64,000 nt of DNA from Trebouxia sp. TZW2008. Lineage: Eukaryota > Chlorophyta > Trebouxiophyceae > Trebouxiales > Trebouxiaceae. The notes below the pieces were generated by a model. That model saw only the letters and a program-made list of their open reading frames with translations, did no database searches and was not told the DNA's origin. Each line of letters starts with the position of its first letter. The stretch's first letter is position 1. The stretch is taken from positions 188,463 through 252,462 of the forward strand of contig BDIU01000246.1 in NCBI GenBank assembly GCA_002118135.1, read 5' to 3'. Both the position numbers and the translations under genes were made by a program. Shown one piece after another: positions 1,345-63,925 of the stretch.

Positions 1345-4300
1345 TCAGACATACAGCTGAATGAGCTCATCACTGACTGCTGCTGGAGTCAACACCCCCA
1401 GATCTGTGAACAACAGGCTGATGTATTCTGCAGCAATCAACACATGTGTCAGCGAAAGGTGATGACGCGCTTGCAACAAGCTGCTCTGTGCACAGAGGGT
1501 CAATGCACGCAGCAAGAGGTGTAGCAATGGTACAGCAATCACAGCAAAGTGCTGTTCATGTAGGCAGACATCTACATGATGCCCTGATTTGCTGCATGAC
1601 ATGACTGCAGCTTGAAACAGTGGTACAGCATGCAAGACTCACTGGGTGGAGTGTAATCCCTTGATGGGTTTTCAATTTTGGCTCCTGGTGCCATCAAGGG
1701 GCCAAAGTCCACGTGCTTTTTCTCAACAGGTAGGTCAAGCTGATCCAGGGGGTACAGCCGCGCAAACTGCACCAAAAGAGTTTGAAGTGATTTGCAGCTT
1801 GCCAAGTATATGCTTTTCTTGTGATGCAGCAGCAAGTTTCATGGGCTGCAGCCTTGGAACTTGACAGAATGTGCAAAACATCAGATTTTACTGCTCTGGG
1901 ATGGTATTCACATTACATGCACAACCTCAGAGAAAGCTGCAGCAGTCTGCAAGACAAGCAGGTGTCAGACACAAGGACTGCACAGCTGCACCTAATTTGC
2001 TGAGGAGCAACAGCTGATGCCATGCAGTTTGTGCCATGCAACTGAACATGCTTTACTGCACTGGCATGTAGTGAGTTACCTTGTAACTTTCAGCTGCCAC
2101 ATAAAATGGAATGCCATGCTCTTTTGCTGCAATGGCAATTTGATAGGAGCCCAGCTTGTTGATGATGCCGCCGTTCTCTACCACACCCTCAGCCCCAACT
2201 AGCACTAGGTTCACCCTGCATTGCACATCCCGCTGACAAACAGGAATGAACCCGCAAACAATGCTTACGCAACAAATACCATGTCTTTGCTGCATCCAAG
2301 ATGCAATCTGTCGCTAGGCAGCATGCATTATCAACACCAGCGGTTTGCATGCTGCAGTACGCATGCTGAGGCAGAATTTCTCAACATATGAGGTTTAGCT
2401 GAACGAAGTGCAGTTGCAGCTCCGCTTGGGCTGAGCATATCCTGAGCAAGTGATGACTCACTCTAGCACTGCATGGCTGAAGCTGAGCCTGTGAGGGTTT
2501 GGTCAAGAAGACCCACCAAGGCTACTTAGCGTATGCCAGGCATCTGAGAAAAAGTTTTCTCCCTTGCTTGAGAGCCTCCAAGGCACAGGTGTGTGCATGC
2601 CACGGTCAATTGCCTCAACACAAATCAGCTGGACAAGTTGTACCATGCTGAGCACCATCAATATGTGCGTAGCAGTGGTCTTGTTGATGTGCAGAAACTC
2701 AGTTGAGAGCCTCTAAGGCAAGGGCAACAGCAGAGTCCGGGACAGTGATATGTCCAAGCCATTGACAGCTGCCTTAGCAGCTGAACAAGCTGGGGACAAG
2801 ATGTGAACGCAACTGCATGAGTGCATCACATTCTGACCAGCTGAACATGGCGCTGACTTGAGAGCCTCTGAGGCAAAGGCGACAGCAGATTCCAGTGCAA
2901 TGATAGCAAGCCATTGACAGCTGCCTTAGCAAGAATCAGCTGAACAAGATGTGAACGCAACTCAAGTGTGCATGAATGCATCACATCCTGACCAGCTGAA
3001 CATGGTGCTTACTTGAGAGCCTCCAAGGCGACAGCAGAACCCAGGAGAATGATATCTCCAAGCCATTGACAGCTGCCTTAGCAAGAATCAGCTGAACCAG
3101 ATGTACATCAATTGCAAGTGTGCATAAGTGCAGCACATTTTGACCAGCTGAATATGGCGCTTACTTGGGAGCCTCCCAGGCGAAGGCAACAGCAGAATCC
3201 AGTACAATGGGGCAAGGCACCTTCGTGTTCCTGATGCGCATGCAAGCTGATTCAATTACACTTGTGCAAGTTGTTTGACTGCGATGCTTACTTGAGAGCC
3301 TCTAAGGCAAAGGCGACCGCAGAGTCCAGGACAATGGTACAGGGCACCTTCATCTTGCTGAGGGCATTGGCCATGGTCAAGCCAGTACTGTCAGGCCGGC
3401 CCTCTGTCACCACCACACTGAACTGCACCCCCTGCACCATCCAAATGGTTTGAGTCAAAAGTTAAAAGCCAAGTTTTCCGTGTTGACAGTTGTTTCCTGT
3501 TCTGGTATGTCCGTTGTGTGGAGGCAATCACTGCTTCTGTTAGCATCTAGCAGAGTCAATATAAGCATGTAAATGGTGACGGTGGTGAGGGTAGTGCTAT
3601 CAGGCCGCCCCTCTGTGGCCACCACACCGGACTGCAACCCTGCAACATAACAACTATAACACATTATAACACAGCTATACAGTCCAGCACAGGTGCTAGG
3701 TTTTTGTTACCCAAGCCCAGTTGTCTGCATCATGCGAATGGCTTCAGACGGAAGCACTCAGATGCAACTGGATGCTTCTGTATGCACCCAGCAGGGTCAT
3801 GAAACCCCACTAGCAAGCGTGTAAACAATGATGATGAAGCATCATCTGGATCTCCTCAACACAGCACTACATGCAAGCTTACGTTTGAGCTGGGGGGTAA
3901 ATCAGAGGTTGGAGCGGCAGGACGGCCAGGCATTGAATTGCCTGCACAGATGGCAAGCAGGTATGAGCCCAGCATCTTATCTGTCGTCAAAGAGGCAAAA
4001 CAGGCGAGGGGATTGATGCTCACATTTTCAGCAGCTTGCTGCAGCAGGGCCAGTGCTACTCGAGAAAAGCCATGCACCATCACCACCGCATCATGCCGCA
4101 CAAAGCCCCCTCCCAGCTCTGCTATTGTTTGCCTGGCCCTTGTTGAGGTCTCTGCAAACTGTTTGCCTCTCTGCACCAGCACAAGATCGGCTCGATGCAT
4201 GCGCAATCAGAGACAACATTGTTCTCCAAGGGACAGGGTTGATATGCTTTTTACGTATGCACTAGGGCAACAGCATCGTGCAGCAAAAACCCTAGTTACT

Positions 4301-6496
4301 AAACACTAAACCCCACCCACCTCTGCCATTGTTTGCCTTGTCCTTGTTGACGTCTCTGCAGACTGTTTGCCTCTCTGCAAAGTGGCAAGGTTTGGTTTGG
4401 GATAACACAGGACGAAACTGATTGATTGCCCCAGCATATACCTAGCTAGGCCTGCTGAGCCTGTCTCGCACACGTTTAGAGTGGACAAATGAAATGAAAG
4501 TGGCGAGACTTCCTCCCAAAATATGTTTGTACTGCTGCATTCCGACACTGCAAGCAGAATGCATGTGATGCTCTTACACAGATTTCATGCAAGAGAGCAT
4601 GGACTATTTATTGCAGGCATTGTTTGGGCCACAGTCTCCTCAAGCTGAGCCAAGAATATGGCCTCAAGCTGACGTGATGTGAGCTGGGCAGCAACAATCA
4701 ACAACAAGGGCATGCTTTACATGATGCATAACTGTAAGCAGATTTGCAGTTGCGGCCAGTGCATGCTGCAGATTACATAAGTGCTTGCATACCTCAATGA
4801 TGCGGGCTTTGGCAGTTGCAAAGTCCTCGTTCTCGATTGCTGAGGTGCGGGTTGTATACCGTAGGAACAGTTCACAACCGGCTTTGAGTGAGATGGCTGT
4901 GGGATTGCATCTGCAACACATCATGTGCGCTGCCAGGCATTGTCAAATTGCATGATCACCCAAGCGAGACCACAAGCAACTTGTGATACTTGTGGCTAGA
5001 GAGTCAGACTTGACCTGCATATGCATATGGAGTGCAAACTTGCTGCGCAAACAAAAGATGTTGAGCAAGCCAGACGGCGTGGTCGAACACAGTCTTGAAG
5101 TTGTGACACAAGTGGTGCACAGTGACACGAGCCAACATTCTCCCTATAAAACTTTCAACGCCAATATTATTTGCAGCAGACCGTAACGTATACTGCAACA
5201 TGCACGACATACACTGGGTGAAGGCAACTATGATGCAAGCAACATGCTTCAGGACAAGGTCTGAGCAGCTAGCCAGCAAGGGAGTCACCCTTGTAGGGAA
5301 GCAGCAGCATCTTTGAGCTCCTTCTCAAGGCCCATCATGGTCTGGGCTGTGCTGTTCCTGATGACGCTGGTCAGGGCCTGCAAAATAGGACACAATGCAT
5401 GCTCACAGCCTGAGGTGCGCATTCGGGCTAAACATGCTTGCACACTGGGAATGGAAGCTGATTCTGAAGATTAAATGCAGCTGATTCTCAGGCTAGCTAC
5501 TACACAGTAGGTGCCATTGGTTGGAGGATGTGGCATGTGTGAGGTGCTGGTCTATGCTCTACCCCATGAGCAAGCATGCAGGACATTTGTTTGCCTTGCT
5601 GTCATCAAGCAGACGAACTTCTACAGCATTGCCATGTCAGATCCCTGTGATCCCACAGCAACAGTGTCCATGACATGCACAACAGTCATAAACATTGTTG
5701 CCATGCGATCACAGAATGACAATGCAGGCAGCAGTGTACCTTGATGGCTGCCACTGCCACAGCTGTGTCAGGCGACCTCTGCAATGCCTCGTGAAACTCC
5801 TTCACTATGGTGTCTGAATGGCTTGGTACTGCATGCAACAAGACAAAGGCTGATCTCAGGGGATGAAAAAACGGGATTCCTTTCTGTACAGGTTGGCTGG
5901 GTGTGTGCTCCTGCTTTGTGTTCATTGCATGTGTCACTGCTACCGTTCTGCTCGACAACGATTTGTTGCATATATTTGCTGCCCAACACTGACGCGATAG
6001 GGGACACAATGTGTCATCTTAGGCACAACATGTGGCAACATGGATGTCAGTACACATGGTGCATGAAAGCTGCAGAACTGAGCATTCACAAAGTGATTTG
6101 CGCTTGCAGTCTAGGTTGCGTGGGTGCATGAGCAACAACTGACAATATACCTGGATACTGGGCCCCGCCAACTGCAAGTGCTGGTCCTTCATGATGCCAT
6201 ATCGCTGGAGGTTCCCTAAATGCTGTGCTTGTTTGTGTGTTTGACCGGGTTGGGGCTGCATGATGCCAATGCTGTGTAGCAGGTGGGGGGTGTTGGGGGT
6301 CTGGGGGGCTAGGGGTGTCCCCGCTTATATACCCATCCTCTGAGTCAAGATCTTCTGGTTCTTCTGGGATTGGAGGAGTGGATGAGCCTGTGGTTCTGTC
6401 AAGAATTGAGCGCTTTCTGTCTTGTTCACGATCCCTCTGTCTCTTCTCTGTACACAGCGGGCATTTTGCAGGTGCAGCTGGACTTGCGAGTTGCAT
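1345..6496 (-). CDS. EIF2B1: Translation initiation factor eIF2B subunit alpha
   Basis: Nine exons on the minus strand (6496-6151, 5828-5740, 5377-5289, 4910-4793, 4170-4024, 3431-3292, 2215-2080, 1766-1643, 1427-1345). All phases agree, giving 424 codons including the stop. The alpha subunit is regulatory in the eIF2B guanine-nucleotide exchange factor and is needed for sensing phosphorylated eIF2. Family signatures in order: helical N-domain with [64 protein letters not shown]; and the C-terminal [20 protein letters not shown]. The N-terminal exon adds about 115 residues of low-complexity Pro/Glu/Asp sequence beginning at the ATG at 6496. This exon is phase-compatible, but its assignment is less certain than the rest. 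Several introns carry degenerate copies of neighbouring exon ends. The gene is head-to-head with IMPACT. Confidence 0.92.
2560..3215 (-). repeat. Five donor-side copies of an eIF2B-alpha exon end
   Basis: Degenerate direct copies of the 3' end of exon 3431-3292 plus its donor lie in the intron just downstream. The shared motif ttgagagcctc (plus strand) begins near 2568, 2703, 2858, 3013, 3165 (ttgggagcctc) and, in the true exon, 3292. Spacing is 135, 155, 155, 152 and 127 bp. Confidence 0.85.
3585..3655 (-). repeat. Acceptor-side copy of an eIF2B-alpha exon start
   Basis: A degenerate copy of the 5' end of exon 3431-3292 (EGRPDST-coding segment and preceding acceptor region) lies about 190 bp upstream in the gene's direction. 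Together with the downstream array it shows duplication at both edges of one exon. Confidence 0.75.
4310..4378 (-). repeat. Acceptor-side copy of an eIF2B-alpha exon start
   Basis: A copy of the 5' end of exon 4170-4024 (segment with gtttgcctctctgca on the plus strand) lies 203 bp upstream in the gene's direction, inside the preceding intron. Confidence 0.8.
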
Positions 6497-7060: not shown

Positions 7061-9260
7061 ATGTCAATGTCGTGCTCTGAAGAAGGTGTGCGCCTTGTAA
7101 GCATAGGAAACGGAAGCGGTGTCAGCATGCATAGCATTCCTAGCATGTCAGTCGAAGTGGTATCCGTGTTGCAGACAAACAGCAGCGGCGGGACGAGCTG
7201 GCTGCACTGCATGCTATCTACGGCGATGACTGCATCATCGGTTCAGAAGGGACCACTTGTCAGGTTTGACCAACACTCCTACACAGTAACAGGCACAGCA
7301 GCTAGGACCACGCTGTTCTGGTGCCGCCGCCAACACCCTTAGCATGCAAATTGAAGTTTTGTCTGTAGGTGTACATACCTGACAGGTTGAGTGTCCCACA
7401 TGTATGTCTAAGGGTACACCTGCCACAAGACTATCCCTCGTCAGCAGCACCTTTGCCTGAAATTGATGGACCACATTTGTCTGATGATATGAAGGTGTGG
7501 ATAATTGGAGAGCTGGAAAGCCAGTTTGCTCCAGGTACGTATGCAATCTGCACTCTGGCAGCATCTGCCTTTGTGCACGATTTGTCAAGCAGTGCATTCA
7601 ACCAGTCTGTTCAGGAGGTTTTTGCCAGTTTTGAGGTTTGAGGCGTATGACTAGGGCACTGCCCAAGCGTCTGTGCATGGCTTCTTATGGGTCAGACATT
7701 GTCCAAACCACTTGGGATGGTCTGTTATGATTTGTTCATCGTCCAAGCCTTGGTGTATGGTTTCTTATGACTCAGCCAATGTGTAAGCCTTTGTGTCTGG
7801 TTTGTCTAGTGCAGGTGAGGTGGTGCTATACAACTGGAGTGAGTGGCTCAAGCAAATGCAGCACCTGTGGGCTCCAGCACCTGAGCCTGAGCATGACCAG
7901 ACAAATTTTGTGGAGTCTGATGCTCAGCTTGCTGCTGCATTGCAACAGGTACTGCGCTTTCTAAGCACAGCCAACTTAGCCTTGTTGAGCTTCCTGAGCA
8001 TGATGCAGCTGTCCTGGTAGAGTATGGCGCTCAGCTTGCTGCCGCCATGCGACAGATGCTAAGCTTTCTGCACTTAATGATTGATGCAGCCACAACTTGC
8101 GTCTGCCAAGCTTGACAAGTCTGGTGCTCAGCGTGCTGCTGCAATGCAGCAGGGCTTATTCGATTGATGTGTGTAGAGTGGCAACCAATAATTGCTTTGA
8201 CAAGATTGTGACAGATGCATAGTTCTTGACCTACATGTAATGTGGCCAGTCTGTGAGACTCGACATTGGCTTTGTATCATGCGCCCTTGCTAAGTATGAA
8301 GCAGTCTCTAAGAGTAGTCAGAGCCATCTATTGTGTGTCACTTCTGATCTGGTGCGTCTAGGCAGACCTCAATGGAGAGCAGCAAGGTGCACAACTGCAA
8401 CAGCCGCACAGTATAGGCATGCCAGAAGATTTGATCATACATGGCGAGCCTTTCACGGAATCAAAATCAACGTTCCAGGTAATGCAAGAAAGGCTCAATG
8501 GCAAGCCTGCCTACTTTGACTGTCTGGCAGCTTTTTACAGTCAGTGTACAAATCAAACAAGTCACATCATTGTATCTGCTGATTGCATACGAGACTTTGC
8601 CTTCAAAAGCACAACTGACTATATATGCTCTGCACTGAAAACTATGCAACAGTTGATCAGCTATGCTGCTGCAGGCACACCTAGCGCCAGTGACATCCAC
8701 TGAGGATGTGCAAAACTGCATGACAAGTCTACTGCAGCATAATAAGATTAGAAATGCCACACATAACATCTTGGCGTACCGAATCTACGTCAAGGACAGA
8801 GACGCTTGGTTGCAGGTAACACTGCTGTGCAAGGCATAGATGTCAAATCTTGTTTCAGCAAGGTGGTCGTGGCACAAGGATGATCCTTTGTGCCCCAATG
8901 ACCAGTAGTCAGAAGCATCCTGCATCAAATGCAATGCAATGTCAACCGGTCACATGAGCGACATGTGAGCTAGCTTTGCACGTTCTCACAACACTTATTG
9001 TGCGTGATTTAGCATATCAGTTGCTGTGCATACAGGACTATGATGATGATGGCGAAGATGCAGCAGGAGGCAGGTTGCTGCATTTGCTGCAGATCCTTGA
9101 CATCAAAGACACTGTTGTAGTAGTCACAAGATGGTATGGCGGCGTCAAGCTTGGCCCAGCTCGGTTTACGCACATCAACAATGCTGCCAGGATGCTCCTT
9201 GACAAGTGTGGTTGTATTCAAGCTGATACTGCGTCACACAAAAACAAAAAGCGGCACTGA
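7061..9260 (+). CDS. IMPACT: IMPACT/Yih1 family protein (RWD + UPF0029 domains)
   Basis: Seven exons (7061-7085, 7175-7263, 7369-7534, 7815-7948, 8362-8478, 8675-8815, 9036-9260) close in phase to 299 codons. The N-terminal RWD domain (about residues 10-95) starts DELAALHAIYGDD and contains VHLPQDYPS. After a Glu/Gln-rich linker comes the UPF0029/IMPACT domain with HGEPFTESKSTFQ, ATHNILAYRI, DDDGEDAAGGRLL and VTRWYGGVKLGPARFTHINN. Family role: it competes for GCN1 and so restrains GCN2 kinase, relieving eIF2-alpha phosphorylation. The first exon codes only eight residues; it was chosen because its phase joins exactly to the RWD exon. Partial copies of the fourth exon's end follow it in the intron. 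It is divergent from eIF2B-alpha, a component of the same regulatory pathway. Confidence 0.93.
7640..7810. repeat. Intronic minisatellite in IMPACT
   Basis: Imperfect units of about 40-55 bp built around gtccaagcc ... tggtttcttatg repeat three to four times in the third intron. No coding value is evident. Confidence 0.6.
8022..8160 (+). repeat. Two donor-side copies of an IMPACT exon end
   Basis: Degenerate copies of the 3' end of exon 7815-7948 (segment gctcagcttgctgctgc). Motif starts are near 7922 (true exon), 8030 and 8116. Confidence 0.75.
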
Positions 9261-9523
9261 GCTAGCACACACTTTGACAATATTGAATGTCGGACAAAAA
9301 GGCTGGCGCAAGCCATGCTATGTGCAATTCGAGTCATGTGTGTGGGTTGGCATCCCACGCAACTCAAAGCTGATGACACATGTGTTCGTGACAATTGAAC
9401 AGACGTCTTTGTGTGACAGCAGCAACACACATCAACCACTTGAACGAAACGTAAATGAAATCAATCAAATGTTGATTCACTTAGGCACTTGTTTGATTCA
9501 ATTCAGATGACAGTTCACAGCTA

Positions 9524-13300: not shown

Positions 13301-14939
13301 GACCCTCGTGTTCATCATTGACATCTCCATCTGCATGACTCCTGTGCAGGAGCAGGCAAACAAGGCAGAGTCATTGGTGGGGCTGCACAACGGCAATGCC
13401 AATGCAGCAGAGGTCTTGAGCAGCCTAGAAGTGGAAGTTCTTCAAGTGCTTGATTGAACAACGCTGAGATCTCTTTCTGTACCATTCATGTGCAGGAGCA
13501 GGCAAACAAGGCAGAGTCACTGGTACGGCTGCATAACGGCATTGCCAATGCAGCAGAGGCTCTGGGCAGGCTAGCAGGGGAAGAGCTCACAGGCGCCCAG
13601 GCAGAGCACCTTGAAGAAGAAGCAGCAGCTAAGGTAATCCCTCAAGACACCACTTGCCCAGTCCGCTGTCTTTTCCCTTGCATAGCAAGCAAGATCGCCC
13701 TGTCTTAATGGTTGAGAGGCAGTGACATGAGCACAGCCATGCAGTCATACTCTTACCCAGGATGCCGGCATATGGACTGACGCTTGTGACTTGCGAATGG
13801 TCGGCATGGGCTCAGAGTATGCTTGCTGCTATGCTCTGCAGCCTAAGCACATAAGCATGCTGCAATGCTCCTCAGCCTTAGCGTGCTCACAAGCGCGTGC
13901 TGTGTGGCTTTCAGGTAACTGAGAGCAAAGCAGGCAGGTGCTTCTATGCAGCACATGCGCAGCTTGCCACAGGCAAACAGCTTGAAGCGCATGCTCTCTT
14001 TGGAAGGGCAGCTGAGCACGCCAAGCAGGCAGTCAGGCAGCATCAGGTCAGTCTCAACGAAGCAATTGCACTGTGTAAGCACACATGCAGATGTCTGGCC
14101 TATCATGCCATATGGGAACAAACATGTAGCATGATGACTACACCAGGGTTCTGTGTTGTGCCCTTTGCATGTTTTCGTTAAAATGTATGGTATGCTTGGA
14201 GATCAATGGATTTGTATGGTCTACTAAGCGTGTAAATTGCATGCCCTGCTGCACTCTATACATGCACCTAAAATTAGTATGGGTATTGGTATTGATATGG
14301 GTCTTTGTGTACATCATATGTGCATCTGAGGCTGTATGTACAACCTCTGCATCAAGTGCAGTTGTCGAGTCATGCTGTGGTTCTGCATAAGGACAGGTAA
14401 ACGTATGATGTTGAAGAAGACCCACACTGGACACAAATTGCCTGTCCTGTTTAAGGTGCAGATATGATGTACGGAAATGACTTAATTGGACTTGCACATG
14501 TTTAAACATGGCTGTACCTTTGCAGGACTGTGCGCAAGTGGACTCTGAAGCAGTGCAAAGGCTGCAGCTGCTGCAACAACAGTCAGCAGCTTGGCAATGC
14601 GTAGCTCACGCCGAGAGTGTATCATCAGAGCAAGAAAGTCACGAAGGCATGGCTCAGGCCACAAGCAACCTATCACTGCAGCACAAGCCTACAGAGCAGC
14701 ATAGGCAGCAGCAGTTCCTGCTGGACAATTTGGATCAGTGGACTTCATTTGTTGGTCCCAATGGCAAAGACGCCAAGTTTGCATCAATCCCGCCTGTTCT
14801 GCAGCAAGTTGCCATCAGGCCACTGATGCTTGACAATGCCCTCAACCACTTAGAAGCGCCTTCAATAGACCATAGGGTAGCCAAGAAAGAGCAGCCCAAG
14901 AGCGCCTTTGCCAAGCTCTTTACATGGGGCAAAAAGTAG
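10320..14939 (+). CDS. SRP68: Signal recognition particle 68 kDa subunit
   Basis: Nine exons (10320-10468, 10550-10660, 10769-11053, 11492-11654, 12086-12350, 12794-12963, 13496-13633, 13915-14046, 14526-14939) close exactly to 609 codons, close to the family's usual length. SRP68 binds 7S RNA and pairs with SRP72 in the cytosolic SRP. Signatures: N-terminal RNA-binding part with QHGLRHNDFKRYRQYCARKL; LPLINAERAWALGKELE; SEVGSYEQQNACRQQLEE; and the C-terminal RPLMLDNALNHLEAPSID, followed by a basic tail ending FTWGKK. Intron 2 is 108 nt, a multiple of three and free of stops, so its retention would insert 36 residues; family alignment argues it is spliced. The stop lies in a tandemly duplicated segment. 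Confidence 0.95.
13350..13445 (+). repeat. Acceptor-side copy of SRP68 exon 7
   Basis: This copy of the exon beginning at 13496 (EQANKAESLV-coding, with a matching ...gtgcag acceptor) lies 146 bp upstream. It lacks a clear equivalent donor and reaches a stop at about 13455, so it is probably skipped. Confidence 0.8.
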
Positions 14940-14995
14940 CCAAGAAAGAGCAGCCCAAGAGCGCCTTTGCTAAGCTCTTTACATGGGGCAAAAAG
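14877..14995 (+). repeat. 59-bp tandem duplication across the SRP68 stop
   Basis: Two units with a 59-bp period (gtagcc starts at 14877 and 14936) differ at one observed position. Because 59 is not a multiple of three, the second unit's gtag, in frame as TAG at 14937-14939, supplies the present stop codon. Without the duplication the frame would read two residues further to a TGA. Confidence 0.9.
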
Positions 14996-47738: not shown

Positions 47739-48202
47739 GATGGCTGTTTTACAGCAAAGACGTGCAGCAACACCTGTCAGGCTGAATAATGAGAACTTCG
47801 CATGACGACGACTGGTGTAAGTTCGTGCCGCAAGCCAATGCGCGGATAGCCAGTGTGCAGTGTGTCCCGAAATGCGTGCAAACCCACGTAGTGCGGTTTC
47901 TCGTCGCCGCGGGTGATGTCACGCCTGTTCGCGCATTGCTGTGAGCAGGTCAAGCCTTGCCATACGGTTGCTCAGCCTTGCAGCTTCGCCGGCCCGCGTT
48001 GCCAACCAGCGCATCGACTAGGACGTCCAAGTTTGCTGTGGTCGCACCGAAACCAGGTCTAGGTGCAGGTGAAAATTTTGCCTTGCATGCAATGCATGAC
48101 ATCATGCAGAAGGTTTTGTTTGCCTTTGGCATGGCGGGGTGTAGACAACACTTAAACAATTGAAAAGCAGCAGCTTGATGAGCATCAGCTTGCCTGTCGT
48201 GC
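47739..48202. promoter_or_regulatory. Bidirectional promoter region, UPL5 / GT90
   Basis: These 464 bp lie between divergent start codons. A locally CG-rich stretch (about 47800-48010) stands out from the surroundings. A short plus-strand ORF at 47957 is not supported. Confidence 0.5.
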
Positions 48203-49744: not shown

Positions 49745-50165
49745 TAGCGACCTATGTGAGGCAGATTGCTTATCACAGTATACGTACTCTTGGCCTCTGT
49801 CTGACTGCACAGCCAATCGCGGTTCTGATAGCATAGCCCAGCCTTCCTGTCTCAGTGAGCAATACGCTACAGCTTGCAGCTGCAATTGCACTCAATAGAC
49901 ACTGCCATCATGACGCCCTTAGCCACTGATTGACTGCACAGCGAATTGCAGTGTCACCAGCATAGCCAAGGATTCCTATCTGGAAGCCACAGACTTAGGC
50001 ATCACAGTGATTTTAGCCGTTGGCTGACTGCACAGCCAATTGCAATGGCAGCTCCGACAGCCAAGGCTTCCTGTCTGGAAGCCACAGACTTAGGCATCAC
50101 AGTACTCTGAGCCATGACTGCACAGCCAATCGCAGTCCTAACAGCATAGCCAAAGCTTCCTGTCC
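49745..50165 (-). repeat. Copies of the DUF819 last coding exon beyond its stop
   Basis: The segment coding the last part of DUF819 (plus strand gactgcacagccaat, then agcatagccaaggcttcctg) recurs near 49801, 49929, 50024 and 50116, beyond the true copy at 50345. These lie downstream of the stop codon, so they are in the 3' UTR or intergenic DNA rather than an intron. Confidence 0.88.
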
Positions 50166-50321: not shown

Positions 50322-53300
50322 TCACAACACCCTTAGCCACTGACTGACTGCACAGCCAATGGCAGTCCCAATAGCATAGCCAAGGCTTCCTGTTAGCATT
50401 GCAGGCCGCACCATATTGGGCCAACCCCTGGAAGCTGCCATGGCAGCTGCTGTTGCTGGGCCGCCAATATTTGCATTGGACGCTGTTAGAACGACCTGTA
50501 TAGGTAGCATTTTGACTAAGACCGAACGCCAAGCTTTGGCAACAGGCTGATTTGCACAGGCAGCCAAGCCAGCCAGCACATCACCTCCAGAAAGTGATAC
50601 CAAAAGCGAGCAGCAAGCAAGCAAAACAACTTATGCAAGAAGACTGACCTGCATAGGCAAGCCAGCCAGCACATAGCCACCAAGAATAATGACAGTCAAG
50701 TGCACTCCCAGCTGAATGGCAATGAAAGCCGTAAGCCAGCCAGTGCCCCAGAGGGCAGTAAGGGAACCTGCCCCTGCCCCAATGGTGGCGAAGAACAGCA
50801 GCATCAGAGCTCCTCCCACTGCCTCAGCACCTGCAGTAAAATATGGAACAGAGGTCTTGGATCAGTCAATAGAAACTTCAGGTAGCCAGTGCCCCAGAGG
50901 GCTGAAAAAGAACCTGCTCCTGCCCCTATGGTGACAAAAAACAGCAGCATCAGAGCTCCTCCCACTGCCTCAGCACCTGCAGTCAAATTTGGGACAGACT
51001 TTTTGGATGGGTTGAGTGAGCTGTCAGCCATACAGTGCCCCAAAGGGCTGAAAAGAAAACTGCTCTTATGGTGGCAAAGAACAGCAGCATCAGAGCTTCT
51101 CGCACTGCCTCTGGACCTGCAACAAAACATGTGATGGGTGTCTTGGATCAGTCAATACAAACTTCAGGTAGCCAGTGCCCTACAGGGCTGAAAAGAGAAC
51201 ATGCCCCTGCCCTTCTGGTGGCAAGGAATAGCAGCATCAGACCTCCTCCCCCTGCCTCAGCACCTGCAGTGAAATACAGGACAGCTTGGATCAGTCAGTC
51301 AGTTGAGCTGGTAGCCAGCTGGTGCGCTAGAGGGCTGAAAAGGAACCTGCTCCTGCCCCAATGGTGGCAAAGAACGACGGTATCCAAGCTCCTCCTGTTG
51401 CCTCTGCGCCTGCAACAAAACATGTGACAGGTGTCTTGGATGAGTCAATAGAAACTTCAGAAAGCCAGTGCCCTACAGGGCTGAAAGAGAACCTGCCCCT
51501 GCGCCTATGTTGGCAAAAACAGCAGCATCAGACCTCCTCCCAGTGCCTCTGCATCTGCAGTAAAATATAGAACAGATTTCTTGGATCGGTCAGTTGAGCT
51601 GGCAGCCAGTGAGTGCCCTGGGCTGAAAGGGAACGCGACCCTGCTCCCTATCGTGGCAAAGAACAACAACATCAAAGCTCCTCCCGTTGCCTCTGCGCCT
51701 GCAGTCAACATAGAACAGATTTCTTGGCACAACTTGTCGCACTGTTCACTGCTCATGGTGATATGCTCAACATTCAAGGCTGCTTGAGCTGTAGGCTCCT
51801 CACAAAACTGTAACATAAGCCTTGTCAAGTCAGCGTGTGTCACACGCGCCTTGATTTTGCCTACCTCTGAATGGTGAGGAGGCATTTTGACCAGCTTTAG
51901 CGTTGACAGCGCTACCCACGGATGCAAAGACAGACGCCACAACAGCCATAGCTGCAAGATTGATGCTGGGCAACCCTAGAGCGCTGGCCAAACCCTCTCC
52001 CAGGGCGCAAGCAGCCACGCCAAACGCAAGCGACAGCGCTATGCTCTCCACTGTTGGAGCAGCTGCAACAGCAGCTGATGACACACTGGCTGCCACAGTG
52101 GCAACTGCAGTGCCTGTGCTGGCTGCTGTGTCAGACAAATGTCCTGCAGCACATCAGCATGGCATCTTCATCAACAGCATGTCAGCACTGGATGTCATAC
52201 TTCTCAGGGTTCAGAGACGTCGTGACGTAGTGCATTGGCAGCAACGTGTTCCTTTGATGTGTAGACATATCAGTAAGGATTTGCACTGGTTGCAGAACTC
52301 AAATTTGATTGGCATTTACATCGCATACTGTGGATGCTCAATGCATGGGAAGCAAACATGGTGCAAGCAACACAAGCCTTGACCCTTGCATGTCATCACG
52401 GCTGCCAGACCTTCAAGATCTTTCTCCTGAACTGCAAAAGTGCTGTGCTTGACACGTAGCTGAAGCTGTTTTGGCATTTCCATGCTACCTTTGGCTGGAA
52501 TGACCATGGTAGCTTCAAGCAACACACGCCGTGACCAGTGCATACAACAATTGTCACCAAACCTTCATGACCTTTCTCCTTTGAACAGCAAAAGTGCTGT
52601 GCTTGAGACGTAGCTGAAGCTGTTTTGGCAATTTTCACATTACCTTTAGCTGGAATGACCATGACTGCTTCAAGCAACACAAGCTGTGGCTAATGCGTGT
52701 CATAATCCTCACCGCACCTTCATGATCCGCCTCATGAACAGAAACTGTGCTGTTCTTGACATCCACAGAGGCAGGCTCAGTTGCTGTGGCAGAAGCTTTT
52801 TCCATGGTAGCTGTGGCCGGGATGATCATGATAGCTGTCAGGTAGGCAGCCATGGCAATATTGTCTGCTGCCATACTGGCGGCCAACAGAGGTCCAGGAG
52901 TCAGTCCCAGGGACTGTGACACAGCCGCAAAGTTGACTGAGCCCCCTATGTAGCTTGCACACAAGGCCGAAGCAATCTGCATCAAGCCAAAAGAGAGCCT
53001 CAGATTTGCAGAATGGCTTGGTTACACATGAGTAAAGTTTGCTGAGAAAGAAAGCAGCAATCTCTTGCAAATGGGGTCTGGTAGAACCCAAGAAAAAGTA
53101 CAGTTTGAGGGTACAATGCAGTGCAAGCTATCAAGTGCCTCCATTGGCTCATATGGAGGTCTAATTTATCGTGCAGGATGTGAACGTTAACAATTTGATG
53201 GGGCTTGTGATGAATGGGTGATGAACGGCGATTTGCTGATGGTGATCAACACTCAGCCAGGCTAGGCAGAAGCAGCTGGCAAGATATCAACACAACATAC

Positions 53301-55402: not shown

Positions 55403-58400
55403 ATGAGGGGCGGGTGGTGTGTCTTTGACAGGCCTGCCAACTCACCTGGCTTGCTTGCGGCCGAGCGCCCCTGGGGGTCGGAAACAAGCACAAGCTACAG
55501 CGTTAGCAGCTTTCCCTTGCAAACAAAGTCTTCCAGAGCCCCCTCAAACCGAGATGCTCACCGTCTGAGCTTCTCACTGTCTCCTGAGGGTAATCAGCCC
55601 AGTGGCAAGCATCCCAAGTTTGCTGCAAGCAGCGCACATTGCTTGAAGCAGCAGAGGCGCCAAAGTCCTTTGAATGCTTTTGCATCTATCAGCAGTGCAA
55701 TGTCTGACAGATTCAGCATAGGCAGGAGCAAGCAGCAGAGGCCAAGACAGACAACAATGGCCTGTGAGTTTTCCAGTCCGCAGCCAGACATGCATGCCAG
55801 TCAGCATAGCTGCTCTCTATCACACAAGCCCTCATTACTCATGACAAACAGCAAATGTCGAAATCATCAACAGCAAAGCCAATTCGTGAGTCTAGATTGT
55901 TTTGAGCTGTGCGACACGCCCAGCACATCAAGTTTTCACCCCCGCTTTGCATCCATCTCTTTGGCTCAGAGACCAAAGCGCAAACGCCAGCCTGTCAACA
56001 TTGGGTCACAGTCCTTCCCTCAGTCAGTTGCAGTCCAGTCGTCTACATCAACCCAGCAAGGCAGCAGATCAGGCCCTGTAATGGACCTTGCTCAAAATTC
56101 AGCCACTGGGTTTTCATCCACATCAGTCTATCCAGGCAGCAGGTCAAGCCCAGCAATGGACTCAGCTCAGGGTTCAGCCACAGTGTTTGAGTTCTCGTCC
56201 ATGTCAGCGTACAAAGGCAGCAGATCAAGCCCTATAACAGACTCAGCTCAGGCCCCAGCCACAGTGTTTGATTTCTCATCTGCAACAGCCCGTCAAGGAG
56301 GCCCTGTGATGGACTTGGCCCAAAACTCAGCCACAGTGTTTGGGGCCTCAGATGCACAGGAACACAGGGGCAAAGGAGGGGCAGATGTAAAAGCCACTGG
56401 CCATCAGCTTAAGAAGTCTGTGCTGAAAATGCCTTCGCAGCTCCGGCGCTTGTTCGCTGGAGCCTTTGCAGGCAAGCGTTTCTGGCATTCCTGTGTCACA
56501 CCACGTGGTGGTCCGTTTTCAACGTGCATCCTCAAGTGGTGTTGTGAGCTTGATGTGATCTGGAGGCATGGTTTCATGAACAATAAAGGCCTATAAGAGG
56601 GTGTTTTACTTGGATTTTTTGGTTGATTTTCAGAGTATAGCGCAGCTTGGTAGCGTATCTGTTCTGGGAGCGTGCGACATGAAAGTTGCGTGATAAATTT
56701 TAGGCAAATACAACAGAGCGAGGCCTCCATTCTACTATTCCAGCATGCGTTTTGATTCATCATGTCTGATTGACACAGTAGCATCATGCCATGAACCGCA
56801 AGCTGCAAGCAATGCAGAGATTATGTGGCTTATGCTGTTGATCCCTGCAGGTGCTTTGTCAAAGACCACAATTGCTCCTATAGAGACTATCAGGATGCAG
56901 GTCATGGGCAACAAGGTGCGCATTTGACAGCCATGAGGTTTAACAAATGTTGACATTTGCACAACCCTGGCGTCAGCTTTATGTCGCAGACATTGCTACA
57001 TCAGGGGATCACATGAGCCGAATCCCATGACTGTCATTGGTTTTTTGAGGGCTTGCAACAATGGAAGATTGCCTTGTTTGGCAGCAGTTCCCTCCCTTTG
57101 CCTTCAGATTGCTCTCAAGCTTGTCCTTTGCATCTCATAGCTGTACAGAATAGCTTCTGCCGTGAGCATCTGCCTTGTGTCCCTGCCTTCACAATTTTCT
57201 GCTTTGCAAATGTGAGCTGGGTTGGCGATGCCGGGCTCTTGTATCCTCACAGCATACATGATACGCTAAGCCTTCACAGTTTTCTGCTTTGTAAAAGTGA
57301 GCTGGATTGGCAATGCAGGGCACTGTCATGGAATCAATTGGAAGGACTTGGGCGCGCAAAGGCATTCTGGGGTTTTTCAGCGGCAACTCTGCAGGTACTG
57401 CACTGCTGTATGCATCAAGGTGTCTCCTCCAAAGAATTGGGGCATGTTAGACTTAGACAATTGCACTGCATGTGGTGTTCACTGTTGCAGACTGCTGCAC
57501 AGTAACAACAAGCGTCTGTACTGTCAAGATGGGCTGTGTCTTGCAATCCCTACCATACAGGTCCAACTGTAATGATCTTGGCCTGACACATGTGTGTACA
57601 CAACATGTTGCATAGCTTGACATGTACATCATGGTACTTATGTTTTTAGCTTTTGAGACTGGCAAAAAACTCAAATTTGCTTTTTGTCTATATGACAGAC
57701 CCCCATATTTCAGGCCCCTTGCACTGCTAAGATGCATGTGATTGTGTGCAGACATGCTGCAAGCGATGCCGTAATAAGCTTACGAGTCAAGTTGCTTTGT
57801 TGCCTACAAGAAGCTGCTGATGTGCATGTGTTTCTTTGCAGACATTGTGTGGGTGATACTGTCAAAAGCCATAGAGCGGATGTGTTTTGATACCTACAAG
57901 AAGATAACATGCTTGATTTGTTTGCAGACATTGTGCTGGTGATCCGATCAAACGCCATGGCATTGACATGCTTTCAGGTGCATGTGTTTACTTGCAGATA
58001 TTCTGTGTCTGGTACTGTCAAAAGTCATAGAGCTGACGTGCTTTGATACCTACAAGAAAAAAACATGCTTGAGTTTGTTTACATAAATGTAGCCGGCAAT
58101 GCTGCCAAAGCCATAGAGTTGACATGCTTTGACCCCTACAAGAAGCTGCTGACGTGCACGTATTTGTTTGCAGACATACTGCGAGTGATGCCGTCAAAAG
58201 CCATCGAGCTGACATGCTTTGATGCGTACAAGAGGCTGCTGAGTCACAAGGATGAGGAGGGCAAGCTGTATCGGCCGGGGCCGTTGCTAACAGGCCTTGC
58301 AGGAGCAGCTGCAGGTAATACTTTTTGGAACAGGACATATTCCAGACTTGCACATTGAGTTTGTTTGACTGTCTCAGATGGCAAAGGACCCTCGCTCACA

Positions 58401-60585
58401 GGACTTGCAGGAGCAGCTGCAGGTAATCATTCACGCAACCCAAACAATGGTCAGTGTCATGGCAATTACATTTATCAGCAAATGACTGGATGTGCCGGTG
58501 GGTACGCATGCGTGCAAGTTCGTGAGCAAGTGGCTAGTAAGTGTCTGCACATGTGGGACGCAGAGATCGAGTGAGTGAGACAGTCAGTGAGCAGAGTGTG
58601 AATTACTGAGCTAGTTAATGAGGAAGAGAGAATCAGCGAGGAGGTGGGTCAATGAGTGCGCGAGTTAAGACTTGAATGCCTAAACAACTCAACGAATGAA
58701 AGGCAGGTGCATGCATGCATGGTAGCTGATTGAGGGAATGAACGTCCAATCAAATGGACACCAAATTGATTTTGACAGAGTCTCTTGACAGGTGCCACCT
58801 CAAGAGTGGGGCTGCATTCTTTGGGAACCTTGAGAACATGCCAGACAACAGCCCCAACTAGATTCATGCAAGACTGTGGGCATGCATGAGTGGCCACACA
58901 GTGACCAAATGAATTGGTCTAATCACATCCTGACTCTGCCTTTGGTTCTGACAGGTGCCACCTCAACAGTGGGGCTGTACCCTTTGGAGACCTTGAGAAC
59001 CCGGCTGGCCATGGGAGATTATGACAGCTTGATGCACGCAGTCAGAATTATCACTGCAGAGGAGGGCTTCATGGCCTTCTATCAGGTCAGCCCTTGCTTC
59101 CTGCTCTTCTTGTCAGTGGAGTCTGCATCACATCAGTACAGTAAACTCTCTTTGTAAGGACACTCGATGTAAGGACACTCTCAATCTAAGGACAACACCA
59201 TTGGTGACCAATCACTGCATTCTGGCTGCAGTTGTCCCTCTGAGTAAGGACAATTCGATGTAAGGACAAATTTCTTGGTGACCAAAGCGGTCGTTACAAA
59301 GAGAGTTTACTGTACAAAGAAGTCGTGGGCAGCATTGCTAACACACCTTACTCAGATAGCATGCTGCTAGTGCTTGGTGTGCTCACTGCAGCATGTGTGT
59401 ACAGTCAACGTGTGTACAGTAAACTCTCTCTGTAACAACTGCTTTGGTAACCAAAAAGTTTGTCCTTACATCGAATTGTCCTTACTCAGAGGGACCACTG
59501 CAGTCAGAATGCAGTGACTGATTACCAATGGCGCTGTCCTTACATCGAGATTGTCCTTACATCAAGTCTCCTTACATGAGAGTGTACTGCTGTTGGCTTT
59601 GTGTGCTGCAAGTTGAACTTCACTGCCCCCTGCCTTATGGTCTGCGCGCCCTGCTGCCTACTGCACACAAGATGAAACTTGAGGGATCAAGGCTCTGAGG
59701 AAGTGCTGACTGCCACACAGGGAATTCAAGCCAGCTTGATAGGGATTCTGCCATACGCTGCCATAAGGCTGGGAGTGTATGACGGCTTGAAGTGGAGTCA
59801 CAGGAAGGTGACCAAGAAGGAGAAGATCCCGCCCATTCCCACAGCGCTGTATGGTGCCTTTGCTGGCCTGGTGTCTGCATCTGCCACTTTCCCTGTAGAA
59901 GTTGTCAGGTAAGAAAAGGCCAGACACCCTTGAATGTTTGGGTTTTGTCCAGTTCTGCCATTCTAAAATGACGTGACTGCTGCCATCTGCGGTTCTGCTG
60001 GCTTGATGTCTGCATCAGCCACATTCCCTGTAGAAGTTGTGAGGTAAGAACATGAAGTTGTGGGGTAAGACCATGCTAAACATCTCTTGTGCCTGCTTGG
60101 TTGCTGTCCACTTCTGCAAGCAGAGAAACAGCAGGCAAATTGCCTTGCTCATGCAGAACACACTGCATCTTGCTGTAAAGCCGCACGCTGCTTATGCTGG
60201 CCAGATTCAGCTAATTGATGAACACCCTGAATCTGGACAGCATAAGCAGCGTGCGGCAGCTAGTTGTCACTGTATGCACTGCCCATGTGTGGCAGTCTTG
60301 ACCATTCTGGCTTCTTTATTTGTTACATGTCTACCTATTTGGTGCTCTGGAAGCAGGCGGCCAGATTGCACTGATGAGCATGTTTACGTTCCATGTTTCT
60401 GTAGACGCAGAATGATGGTGGGCACTGCCAAGGGATCCACCTTCACAGCCCTGACAAACATTGCACGAACAGAAGGGTGGCGAAGTCTGTACAAGGGCAT
60501 TGGTTTGACATGGGCCAAGCAGGCTCCACAATATGCCGTCACCTTCCTTGTTTACGACAAGATTAAGGAAATTTTGGAAGTTTGA
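55403..60585 (+). CDS. Mitochondrial carrier family protein, BT1-like adenine nucleotide transporter
   Basis: Seven exons (55403-56471, 56851-56915, 57319-57394, 58174-58314, 58955-59085, 59721-59908, 60405-60585) close to 617 codons. Three carrier repeats: LSKTTIAPIETIRMQVMGNK; STVGLYPLETLRTRLAMGDY; SATFPVEVVRRRMMVG, each the P-x-[DE]-x-x-[KR] type. RVMPSKAIELTCFDAY and GIGLTWAKQAPQYAVTF follow the BT1 (brittle-1) pattern. BT1-type carriers move adenine nucleotides across plastid or mitochondrial inner membranes. The first exon codes an unusually long (about 350 residue) Ser/Gln-rich N-terminus with repeats; whether all of it is translated is uncertain. Intron 1 uses a GC donor (GCAAGC). Intron 5 holds two MITEs and the last intron a hairpin. 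Confidence 0.92.
56040..56345 (+). repeat. In-frame repeats in the carrier N-terminus
   Basis: Four imperfect repeats of about 25-32 codons with the pattern GSRSSPxMDSAQxSATVF..S (GPVMDLAQNSATGF; SSPAMDSAQGSATVFEF; SSPITDSAQAPATVFDF; GPVMDLAQNSATVF). They keep the frame, arguing that the region is translated. Confidence 0.85.
57749..58166 (+). repeat. Five acceptor-side copies of carrier exon 4
   Basis: Units starting cagacat or a variant at about 57749, 57839, 57924, 57995 and 58080 precede the true acceptor at 58171 (spacing 90, 85, 71, 85, 91 bp). Each copies the segment coding MPSKAIELTCFDAYKRL in degraded form. Confidence 0.9.
58379..58430 (+). repeat. Donor-side copy of carrier exon 4
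   Basis: A copy of acaggacttgcaggagcagc plus the GTAAT donor of exon 58174-58314, about 110 bp downstream. Confidence 0.88.
58792..58865 (+). repeat. Acceptor-side copy of carrier exon 5
   Basis: A copy of the exon beginning at 58955 (gtgccacctcaa... cctttggga), displaced 163 bp upstream with an intact gacag acceptor. Confidence 0.88.
59139..59312 (+). mobile_element. Pogo/Tigger-like MITE, copy 1
   Basis: A 174-bp element with terminal inverted repeats of about 23 bp (CAGTAAACTCTCTTTGTAA... and its complement ending TTTACTG), flanked on both sides by TA, the target duplication of the Tc1/mariner superfamily. No coding capacity. It lies in carrier intron 5. Confidence 0.85.
59417..59589 (-). 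mobile_element. Pogo/Tigger-like MITE, copy 2
   Basis: About 173 bp, the same family as copy 1 but in the opposite orientation, 104 bp away. The TA flank is intact at 59415-59416 and mutated at the other end. The internal motifs tgtccttacatcgaattgtcc and gcagtcagaatgcagtgac mirror copy 1. Confidence 0.83.
59990..60045 (+). repeat. Donor-side copy of carrier exon 6
   Basis: A copy of the exon end coding SASATFPVEVVR and its GTAAGA donor, about 135 bp downstream of 59908. Confidence 0.88.
60180..60257 (+). other. Near-perfect 31-bp intronic hairpin
   Basis: The arms 60180-60210 and 60227-60257 are inverted repeats pairing at 30 of 31 positions around a 16-nt loop (arms begin gccgcacgctgc and end gcagcgtgcggc). 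It lies in the last carrier intron, transcribed on the plus strand. It could be a small-RNA precursor or a remnant of a foldback element; no target-site duplication was seen. Confidence 0.8.
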
Positions 60586-61225: not shown

Positions 61226-63351
61226 TCAAGTGCCAGCTGTGACAGGATCCTCATCACTGTTGGCCTCTTCAGCATCCTCAATCTGATCCTCTGAAAACCC
61301 CTCCTTCTTCATGTATTTCCGCTCTTCTCTGTCATCTGCCTGCTCTTTCTCACTTTCACTCTTTTGGTTGTTAGACTTCTTCTGCTTGGCTAGTTCTTTG
61401 CCCAGCTTGTCAGGCAGCTCAGCATACCATTTCTTGATGACCTGAACAGAGGCACAGATGAGATGATATGCAGCGTTGATTGCGCTTCTATGGCTGTGCT
61501 GTTTCCAAGCAGCAATCAGTTGCAGGGGCTCCTGATGACTGAGCAGCATCACGTCATGCTGGCTTTGTTGCGTCTGCCATCACTCGAACTCATCAACTGG
61601 CAAGCAGGGAAAGCAACACAATACTGAGCCAAAACCATCGCCCAAAGCGACGCTCAGTCACAGAGCGACTGTATGCCAGCTACAAGGTGCTCAGCAGCAA
61701 TCAGGTTTCAGGTATTGCATTGCCATGACAACTCCTTAGTGAGATCAGGACACTTACAGCTTACAAGCACAAGACGCAGCAATTGTGGTACCTTGGAGCC
61801 ATCTTTGAGTCTTCGCTTGGCTGGGTCACCCCACTCTGGGTTGAACTCATACAGCCCAAACTTCAGCTCATATGCAAATGCCCACTCAAAGTTGTCTACA
61901 AGTGTCCAGTAGAAGAAACCTCTCACATCATAGCCGTCTTCAACAGCCCGCTGGACCTGCACCACAAACGACAGTAAATGAAGTATTGCTTGAGGTAAAA
62001 ATTGCAGTGAGCAGCTTGTCATCCAATGTGCATGCTGCAGACTCCACAGCAGCATTCAGCATATGCTACCGCCACAACCATTTGCAAAAAGCTGATTGCC
62101 GAAGCCAGCCATGCAAGATGCTATGGTGGCTAAGATGCAATGCTCCTGGCAGCTGCATGCCAAGGCTGCCAGGTTTGCAGGTTCATGACCGCTTGTGACG
62201 ACCATGAGAGCATATGATGTGCTCTGCCTGTATTCATTGTAAATGTGGGCTAGGCAGGCTCAGCAGGCCCATCTAGGTACGTACAGAAGCAATCAACTGT
62301 CTCCAACCAGTTCAATCATGTGCTAATCTAAACCATTTATATTGGACATGCAGTTTGCAGACAAGTACCATCAGAGGCAGCAATACAAGGAAGAAGCATT
62401 ATGCAGCAACATAATGCAGGCGCCAGCAGCATGACCGCCGCATAGACGAGCCGGGAATTCACCGCACAGCTTGTACCACTACAGTTGTGACAGCGTCAGG
62501 CAAAGATGACAGACAGAACGACCTGTGAATTGACCTGTGAATTGAATGGCATGATTTGCCTCTTTCAGGTAGCCATTGATCCACTCCTTCCTGAAGAGTG
62601 CTTTGCAAGAGGTGTGCAACTCCCAGTCATGTATATGAGCATTACCAACAGCAGCATCGCTAACAGCAACGCCATTGCAATAAACATGACACCAAATGGC
62701 ATGACTCACCTCTTTCAGGTAGCCGTTGATCCACTCGCTCCTCTCTGAGATGTCCTTGGTGAGTGCAGTGCCGTTCTCAGTGATGTACATGGACATCACT
62801 GACACAAGTGCAGTGTACATGGTCAAAAGCAGTCTCACTCACCCCTTTCAGGTAACCTTAGATCCACTAACTCTGTTTGGAGTGTGAGTGGATTGCCATT
62901 TTCATGTGATGTACATGGGCATCACCAACAACAGCATCACTGGCAGCAACGCCAGTGCAATGAATGTAACAGCACATGGCATGGCTCACCTCTTTCAGGT
63001 AGCCGTTGATCCACTCACTCCTCCCACAGGTGTCCTTGGTGAGTGGTGTGCAACTCTCAGTCATGTATGTGAGCATCAACAACAATAGCATCACTGGCAG
63101 CAACGCCAGTGCAGTGGACATGACATCAAATGGCATGGCCAACCTCTTTCAGGTAGCCATTGATCCACTCGCTCCTCTCTGGAGTGTCCTTGGTGAGTGG
63201 AGTGCCGTTCTCAGTGATGTACATAGGCACGCCCAGTTTGCTGCCATAGGTGATGGACCTGTACAAGGAAGGGGGGTACATGGGGTAGCCCATCTCAGTG
63301 GTGCCCCTGTGCCCTCTGCTTTTAGGCTGCAGGTTCAGCCCCACAATGCCC
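61226..63351 (-). CDS. GH1 beta-glucosidase, second gene (3' part)
   Basis: Three exons on the minus strand are recognised: 63351-63144, 61956-61792 and 61441-61226, joined in phase 0 and ending at 61226. The rest lies beyond the window. Signatures: GTTEMGYPMYPPSLYR; the catalytic nucleophile motif MYITENGTPLTKD; EWINGYLKE; VEDGYDVRGFFYWTLVDNFE; and WAFAYELKFGLYEFNP. The C-terminus carries a long charged tail (AKQKKSNNQKSESEKEQ... to GT) not usual for GH1. The donor after 63144 is GTTGGC, weaker than the GTGAGC donors of the downstream copies. It is distinct from the gene at 20780-27248, which has a different nucleophile context and tail. Confidence 0.9.
62558..63065 (-). repeat. Four donor-side copies of the second GH1 gene's exon
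   Basis: Copies of the segment coding ITENG...EWINGYLKE with GTGAGC-type donors. The motif ctctttcaggtagcc begins near 62558, 62709, 62841 and 62988 before the true 63143 (spacing 151, 132, 147, 155 bp). Confidence 0.9.
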
Positions 63352-63417
63352 CTGCAACAATGCAGCACAAAAGTCACATTGATTGGTCCCGTAACAAACA
63401 CGTGGACATGGGCAGAC

Positions 63418-63925
63418 CCAGCTTGCTGCTGTAAGTGATGGACCTGTATAGGGAAGAGGTGGGGGGGGCTACATGGGGTAGCCCATCTCAGTGGTGCTTC
63501 GATGCCCTCTGCTCTTAGGCTGCAGACTCAGCCCCACCATGCCCCTGCAACAATGCAGCACACAAGTCACATTGACTTGTCCCGTCACAAATGTGTGTGC
63601 ATGCAGCTCCAGCTTGCTGGTGTAGGTGATGGCTCTGTACAGGGTGGGTTCATGGGGTAGCCCATCTCAGTGGTGCCTTGGTGCTCTCTGCTTTCAGGCT
63701 GCAGATTCAGCCCCACAATGACCCTGCAACAACGCAGCACACCAGTCACATTGATTGCTCCCGTCACAAACATGTGTACACAGGCACGCCCAGCTTGCTG
63801 CTGTAGGTGATGGACCTGTATAGGGTGGGTGGGTACATGGGAGATCCCATCTCAGCGGTGCCCCTGTGCCCTCTGCTTTCAACTGCAGATTTTGCCCCAC
63901 AATACCCCTGCAACCGTGCAGCTAT
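63418..63925 (-). repeat. Three acceptor-side copies of the second GH1 gene's exon
   Basis: Copies of the 5' part of exon 63351-63144 (RGTTEMGYPM coding and the preceding acceptor). The motif ggctgcag is at 63325 (true), 63518 and 63697, with a variant at 63881; spacing is 193, 179 and 184 bp, running toward the window edge. Confidence 0.9.

Follow-up and report, generated by a model that had tools for sequence, protein, structure and literature searches.

Why do introns in so many unrelated genes hold pieces of the exons that lie beside them? The question is raised by a stretch of 64,000 nucleotides of the green lichen alga Trebouxia sp. TZW2008 (bases 188463-252462 of contig BDIU01000246.1; hereafter the window), part of an assembly of 68.5 Mb in 527 contigs. 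An initial annotation of the window had reported that introns of ten named genes contain degenerate head-to-tail copies of the adjoining exon end, its splice site and some intron, and had taken this for a genome-wide mode of intron growth tied to splice junctions. We examined 240 kb in seven stretches (the window and six others) from five contigs, and find that interpretation partly supported. The copies are real, and they quite probably result from tandem duplication of the patch-repair type, filtered by splicing and reading frame, as an extreme case of a known kind of event.

Among 195 introns between trusted predicted exons, 51 contain a copy of the exon end that adjoins them when 120-nt exon ends are compared. 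In the controlled test, which set 80-nt exon ends against the adjoining intron and counted a score of at least 45 as positive, 48 introns qualify, with 23 of 195 donor sides and 32 of 195 acceptor sides, or 55 of 390 together. All four controls gave zero: another intron of the same gene (0/186 donor and 0/186 acceptor, 0/372), and a non-adjacent intron, the reverse complement and a dinucleotide shuffle (each 0/195 plus 0/195, 0/390). The initial annotation had said that its claim would fall if shuffled or non-adjacent introns matched as often; the claim survives both comparisons, and the observation itself is confirmed. Copies number one to six per intron and side, the range first claimed, at a median identity of about 86%. 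The window is a hot spot (18/48 introns), the six other stretches together have 30/147 and none is at zero, so the pattern does extend beyond a single gene and beyond the window. Eight of the ten genes (eIF2B-alpha, IMPACT, SRP68, the first GH1, LCYE, UPL5, DUF819 and the BT1-like carrier) have at least one copy-bearing intron; HMT and the second GH1 gene enter through the array map, their exons lying outside the trusted intron set. A self-BLAST of the window yields 98 local direct matches (less than 8 kb apart), three inverted ones (two palindromes and one distant pair) and no distant direct match.

Exons were predicted by a self-trained exon-chain model that used no annotation and that settled on CAG:GT(A/G)AG as donor and TGCAG:G as acceptor (the colon marks the splice point). 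The acceptor context is unusually strong, with T in 84%, G in 78% and C in 94% of 269 predicted acceptors at positions -5 to -3. A first self-trained gene finder was dropped because it predicted too many exons, and a codon-only seed model because it drifted into low complexity. Predicted exons have a median length of 136 nt; 239 of 371 were trusted, the other 132 (score below 15, length below 55 or copy-like, the last class numbering 39) being left out, and the trusted exons give the 195 introns once those outside 80-1500 nt are removed, 45 of which still hold untrusted predicted exons. Read exon by exon, the predictions in the window agree with the gene names of the initial annotation. Pfam scans of 30 open frames provided the anchors SRP68, S-methyl_trans, Glyco_hydro_1, Glyco_transf_90 and Mito_carr, with a HECT match staying below the cut-off; the names IMPACT, LCYE, UPL5 and BT1, assigned by reading and recall with no search behind them, are presumptive. 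Alignment of relatives' proteins to the window bears out the exons of GH1, eIF2B-alpha and DUF819, except for two GH1 edges, near 22907 and 24304, that look slightly misplaced. The nearest named relatives of the exon-assembled proteins stand at 81% for GH1 (Trebouxia sp. C0005), 95% for eIF2B-alpha (Trebouxia C0004) and 72% for DUF819 (Trebouxia C0005).

Duplication in this DNA reaches well past exon ends. Local direct repeats of at least 60 bits and less than 2 kb apart take up 18.7% of the window and between 6.5% and 13.2% of each of the other six stretches, with at most two nearby inverted repeats per stretch at 60 bits; at that level the window has 73 nearby direct, 2 nearby inverted and 0 distant pairs. 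When repeats of at least 45 bits and less than 1 kb apart are grouped, weaker or farther pairs being left out, the 240 kb hold 101 clusters, of which 74 touch both exon and non-exon sequence, 20 lie wholly outside trusted exons and 7 wholly inside. The smallest spacing per cluster has a median of 133 bp and a 5-95% range of 75-204 bp, with 97 of 99 below 220 bp (two clusters with spacings of at least 400 bp are left out, and the lower size limit is set by detection). The duplications are direct, with units of about 60-230 bp, and lie in exons as well. Spacings are divisible by three in 7/7 wholly exonic clusters, 23/74 junction clusters and 5/20 outside clusters, and the exonic result is as predicted by random duplication followed by reading-frame selection. 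Repeat pairs span predicted junctions in 107 of 233 cases, against 105.9 +/- 9.9 under random circular shift, and 89 of 200 shifts reach the observed number. These pair counts, with the clusters lying wholly outside (20/101) or wholly inside (7/101) exons, do not support an architecture specific to intron junctions, and we take junction copies to be mainly the residue of intense general duplication in genes whose exons are about as short as the unit.

A mutational process in this Trebouxia would, in the account that we favor, keep making tandem duplications, direct and about 60-230 bp long, at any place in the sequence. Because exons are short and introns moderate in length, most duplications within genes would cover a splice junction, leaving copies of an exon end with its donor, or of an acceptor with its exon start, in the adjoining intron. 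With the spliceosome still choosing the outer site, and thus the correct protein, the copy would do no harm and the intron would grow by about one unit per event, while the copies decay largely as unconstrained DNA. By analogy with rice, the duplications may be by-products of patch-mediated repair, in which single-strand nicks close together, or staggered breaks, are filled in and the ends rejoined. Use of the outer splice site, also part of the initial annotation, fits the relatives' proteins in the three genes checked, where the duplicated segment is present once: in P0121-P0126 for the eIF2B-alpha array (two of them named Trebouxia), in each of P0241-P0249 for the DUF819 array (five of nine from named Trebouxia) and in P0001-P0004 for the LYHWDLPQ segment of the first GH1. 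In the latter gene, exon 25754-25942 ends with LYHWDLPQ at CACAG:GTCAGT, and each unit runs over the exon end and donor region into a few bases of the intron; since three does not divide the unit of 86 bp, splicing at the outer donor would yield the relatives' protein. Repeated action on existing introns, which differs from intron creation of the AGGT type, is likewise supported. As for growth, copy-bearing introns are indeed longer (median 670 versus 425 nt), although longer introns also have more room for a copy.

Comparable events are known from plants. In rice, tandem duplications are the commonest source of insertions and are enriched at 50-200 bp; by 200 bp their share has dropped to 5% of events, and the repair of adjacent nicks is held to produce them (PMC7971508), with Vaughn & Bennetzen 2014 and Schiml et al. 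2016 cited there for patch-mediated or adjacent-nick repair. The Trebouxia repeats are like these duplications of green plants in being direct and adjacent, as the pair counts of the window show, and in having a size of about 50-200 bp with an upper limit, as the cluster spacings show. They differ in that the rice events are polymorphisms, whereas those in Trebouxia are deduced from standing copies, with a quarter of the sampled introns affected.

Duplication of a whole unit of intron and exon requires that what lies between exon and copy be matched by what lies past the copy. Such homology across the unit is found in 29 of 50 testable introns, where about 3% would be expected from the threshold (4 of 54 cases were left out because their spacers were too short). 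Flanks right beside the junction are alike (z > 2) in 16/34 donor and 27/48 acceptor copies. Simulated decay gives flank detection anywhere from 0.03 to 1.0, depending on divergence and indels, and the overall detection of 58% is compatible with tandem duplication. At the projected copy junction, AG is kept in 41/48 cases and GT or GC in 27/34. Identity averaged over 30 introns is 79-93% at acceptor positions -5 to -1, 62-97% at exon positions +1 to +45 and 30-62% at -30 to -6, and in 31 instances, where shifting gives 5.2, similarity stops 5-10 nt beyond the exon edge (predicted exons with a score of at least 12). This sharp end would mostly follow from conservation of the exon and splice site, in that the exon pair diverges on one side and the intron parts on both.

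Within the copies, 27 stops occur over 2233 aligned codons, with none in the source exons, and 27 of 35 gaps shift the frame. In the first GH1, stops are present in two of four copies of the array at 22859..23682 and in two of three copies of the LYHWDLPQ array, as aligned to P0001. When a constrained exon and a copy of it free of constraint are simulated, stops in the copy number 25.2 +/- 4.6 at u = 0.12, 31.8 +/- 5.5 at 0.15 and 39.0 +/- 5.8 at 0.18. For the copies we obtain a dN/dS of 0.35 (0.37, with 26 stops in 2200 codons, in an earlier count on other alignments), compared with simulated values of 0.53-0.54 for a neutral copy and 0.07-0.08 when both copies are constrained. Judged from sequence, the copies evolve largely like neutral DNA and are not conserved coding exons, with some constraint possible on part of them.

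Several results weigh against general duplication as the whole account. Junction clusters (74/101) exceed random placement with trusted exons (48.6 +/- 4.8; 0/300 shuffles reach the count), and 128 of 684 junction sites are spanned against a null of 85 +/- 8, a figure that is hard to read since it takes in the 39 copy-like predicted exons, which supply part of its excess. A junction copy should stay detectable about twice as long as an intronic pair, because the exon is conserved and divergence falls on one side only; weighting for this predicts, by our own arithmetic, about 66 junction clusters, still short of the 74 observed. Flank homology was not found in 21 of the 50 introns, and six of 17 testable copies of at least 88% identity have no flank match despite a simulated power of 0.75-1.0 at u = 0.10. 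A first flank test, on single-pair clusters only, gave z > 2 in 5/40 on the right and 8/40 on the left, where one side is expected per pair. The acceptor 5-mer is identical in 31/48 copies versus 138/286 exon 5-mers, a mild excess, and the donor 5-mer in 12/34 versus 73/200, no excess (several copies per intron are counted in both). The dN/dS lies below the neutral simulation, as does the stop count at u of at least 0.15, and third-position changes are in excess (495 versus 428 at u = 0.12). We read most of the junction-cluster excess as survival in view rather than targeting, a real bias being possible, while the young copies without a flank match must be put down to large indels or to non-tandem insertion of exon-end pieces.

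In a rival account, copying would be biased to exon ends, with short pieces inserted into the intron by template switching or RNA-templated repair and no tandem duplication involved. The six young copies without flank homology, for example the one in intron C237a 61450-61958 (94%), fit this idea, as do junction clusters above random placement, although large-indel turnover could erase flanks as well. The tandem-unit signature in 29/50 introns speaks against it, and donor GT or GC in 27/34 copies speaks against a spliced RNA template. Template switching is expected to give copies in both orientations, whereas reverse-complement matches number 0/390, and we regard this explanation as unlikely. 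Improbable, too, in our estimate is a duplication that is aware of splice sites, in which repair or a template switch, perhaps guided by the nascent transcript, would copy exon ends with their splice sites and acceptor copies would be kept working; it draws on the junction-cluster excess, the young copies without flank homology and the acceptor 5-mers kept in 31/48 copies against 48% of exon 5-mers.

Alternatively, the copies might be genuine tandem exons used in alternative splicing, as cassettes or mutually exclusively, and conserved while the introns drift, to which we give a slim chance. Splice motifs are kept in many copies, similarity ends just beyond the splice site, the gene finder calls copy-like exons and dN/dS lies under the neutral simulation, points that speak for this reading. 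However, many copies span only part of an exon, and taken together they do not show the coding constraint and open frame expected of exons: stops are near neutral (within or somewhat below the simulated range), most gaps shift the frame and dN/dS is 0.35. Junction spacings are multiples of three at the chance rate (23/74), and relatives' proteins of the three genes checked hold one copy, including proteins from contigs shorter than the gene here (P0122 on 2,115 bp, against 5.2 kb), which are taken as spliced messages.

It is very doubtful that each array is a newborn intron made from a duplicated exon, as in the AGGT model of Rogers. The array units of the first GH1 do read CA(C/T)AG:GTCAGT-like, acceptor and donor at once, but intron sequence lies inside the units in over half of the testable cases, and the two junctions of an intron, donor and acceptor, resemble each other no more than junctions taken from different introns do (best 10.0 versus control best 11.0; up to 195 introns). 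Nor did a unit made of exon alone, with AGGT at either end of the intron, turn up among up to 195 introns. Work by Gao and Lynch in 2009 reportedly concerns internal gene duplication and intron creation, with tandem duplication interacting with splice sites. A review counts tandem genomic duplication among the demonstrated routes to intron gain, by way of AGGT (PMC3443670). Assembly artefact or chance, for which only the draft state of the assembly (527 contigs) speaks, is close to negligible, given that the copies are diverged (median identity about 86%) and the control comparisons all zero.

A further counterpart is potato RdRp, where a tandem duplication over an intron-exon boundary gave rise to an additional intron and exon (Ma, Lan & Niu 2016, PMC4974935). 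The unit joined the 3' part of an intron to the 5' part of an exon, head to tail, with splice signals inherited, which is alike; however, the extra intron and exon were retained in one gene, whereas in Trebouxia the copy stays in an enlarged intron and the pattern recurs across genes. Introners and DNA-transposon introns are alike as a genome-wide process shaping introns but form dispersed families (PMC9860276), whereas the Trebouxia repeats are local. Similar introns across genes were not seen: the window has no distant direct matches, and exon ends, the sequences compared here in place of whole introns, match non-adjacent introns in 0/390 cases. Among the titles and abstract openings listed in a search of mainly open papers, we found no description of the pattern as a general intron architecture, and a word search finds no "tandem" in the main text of two Trebouxia genome papers (PMC12712428, PMC11126685). 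What that search did not turn up is the density, with roughly one intron in four holding a copy of its own exon end.

If the process is genome-wide, this Trebouxia would hold a dated, sequence-readable record of intron lengthening, in which every copy of an exon end stands for one duplication, datable by how far the copy has diverged from the conserved exon. A by-product of plant DNA repair would thereby be tied to the evolution of intron length. Copies with plausible splice sites also mislead gene finders, as the 39 copy-like exons among 371 predictions illustrate. The copies found in the window are listed gene by gene in the table.

Table. Exon-end copies and arrays in the window, by gene (positions count from the first base of the window; percentages are identities).
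Gene	Copied element	Position	Strand	Intron and remarks
eIF2B-alpha	Array, spacing about 155; end of exon 3292-3431 + donor	2703..3361	-	Intron 2216-3291
eIF2B-alpha	Copies of that array	3165-3234, 2858-2905, 2703-2750	-	Source: end of exon 3292-3431
eIF2B-alpha	Start of exon 3292-3431 + acceptor	3593..3640	-	Upstream intron 3432-4023; 83%; flank homology found
eIF2B-alpha	Start of exon 4024-4170 + TGCAG acceptor	4311..4374	-	Intron 4171-4792; 89%; intron flank without homology
IMPACT-like	End of exon 7815-7948	8118..8153	+	Intron 7949-9035; 89%
SRP68	Start of exon 13496-13633 + acceptor	13350..13437	+	Intron 12964-13495; 86%
HMT	154-bp direct duplication over small predicted exon 18912-18941	18742..18994	-	89%; exon below trust filter
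First GH1	Array, spacing about 143; start of exon coding (I/V)YFGDYPQ	22859..23682	-	Intron 22908-24303 as modelled
First GH1	Five head-to-tail copies (about 86 bp); end of exon 25754-25942 + donor	25334..25834	-	Exon end reads HWDLPQ, CACAG:GTCAGT
First GH1	Three copies; start of exon 25754-25942	26034..26226	-	Intron 25943-26737; 80-96%
LCYE	End of exon 29015-29212	29241..29291	+	Intron 29213-29709; 78%
LCYE	Start of exon 29710-29908	29553..29613	+	Intron 29213-29709; 95%; flank homology not found
LCYE	Four copies; start of exon 30839-31096	30183..30775	+	Intron 29909-30838; 77-89%
UPL5	Start of exon 37262-37358	37467..37501	-	Copy of exon start
UPL5	Array, spacing 154; involves predicted exon 38584-38672	38609..39017	-	89%
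UPL5	Two copies, spacing 221; start of exon 39364-39585	39724..40021	-	89%, 92%; flank homology z 56
UPL5	138-bp duplication over start of exon 40707-40869	40802..41043	-	78%
UPL5	Three copies; end of exon 42428-42675	41899..42335	-	Intron 41750-42427; 69-84%
UPL5	Start of exon 42428-42675	42763..42848	-	87%
UPL5	End of exon 46935-47124	46673..46705	-	Intron 46024-46934; 88%
DUF819	Six copies, spacing about 146; start of exon 50649-50830 + TGCAG acceptor	50884..51696	-	Intron 50831-51864
BT1-like carrier	Four copies; start of exon 58174-58314	57752..58152	+	77-88%
BT1-like carrier	End of exon 58174-58314 + donor	58386..58422	+	86%
BT1-like carrier	Start of exon 58955-59085 + acceptor	58792..58837	+	87%
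BT1-like carrier	End of exon 59721-59908 + GTAAG donor	59996..60050	+	91%; outside trusted intron table
Second GH1	Arrays, spacings 150, 185 and more	62545..63922	-	Overlap exons 62710-62790, 63126-63351, 63816-63907; exons outside trusted intron set

Some of these genes show further features. Relatives' proteins suggest that the true start of the (I/V)YFGDYPQ exon of the first GH1 lies nearer 22960. The last coding segment of DUF819 (TGSLGYAVGTAIGCAV) is followed by three degenerate copies at 49785-50163, beyond its match at 50337, and two DUF819 proteins of Trebouxia sp. C0005, P0242 and P0247, differ in an internal loss and at the C-terminus. The eIF2B-alpha protein of Trebouxia sp. C0010 (P0196) turns into unrelated sequence after the exon whose next intron carries the array here, possibly a misannotation caused by a similar intron. 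The first exon of the BT1-like carrier overlaps a 75-bp (25-codon) repeat at 56081-56471, which we take as the same process acting within an exon. The + strand between UPL5 and DUF819 carries a 391-aa reading frame of the GT90 family (48182-49354).

Repeats of other kinds are also present. In stretch C237a (contig positions 100001-188462), distant pairs number 62 direct and 3 inverted; the distant direct pairs, which have no equivalent in the other stretches, probably represent a repeated gene or domain. An imperfect palindrome at 59139-59589 (a 460-nt self-complementary match, 80%) occupies the BT1-like intron between the exons ending at 59085 and starting at 59721, and a shorter one lies at 60180-60257 (78 nt, 85%). 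The sole distant repeat of the window is an inverted 57-nt pair, 4422-4478 and 62240-62296, with 79% identity and 58 kb apart. Short-unit repeats, apart from the 60-230 bp class, have the units TGAGT, TGAT and the 12-bp TGCTGCATGTGA (45124-45204, 54093-54150 and 37788-37903).

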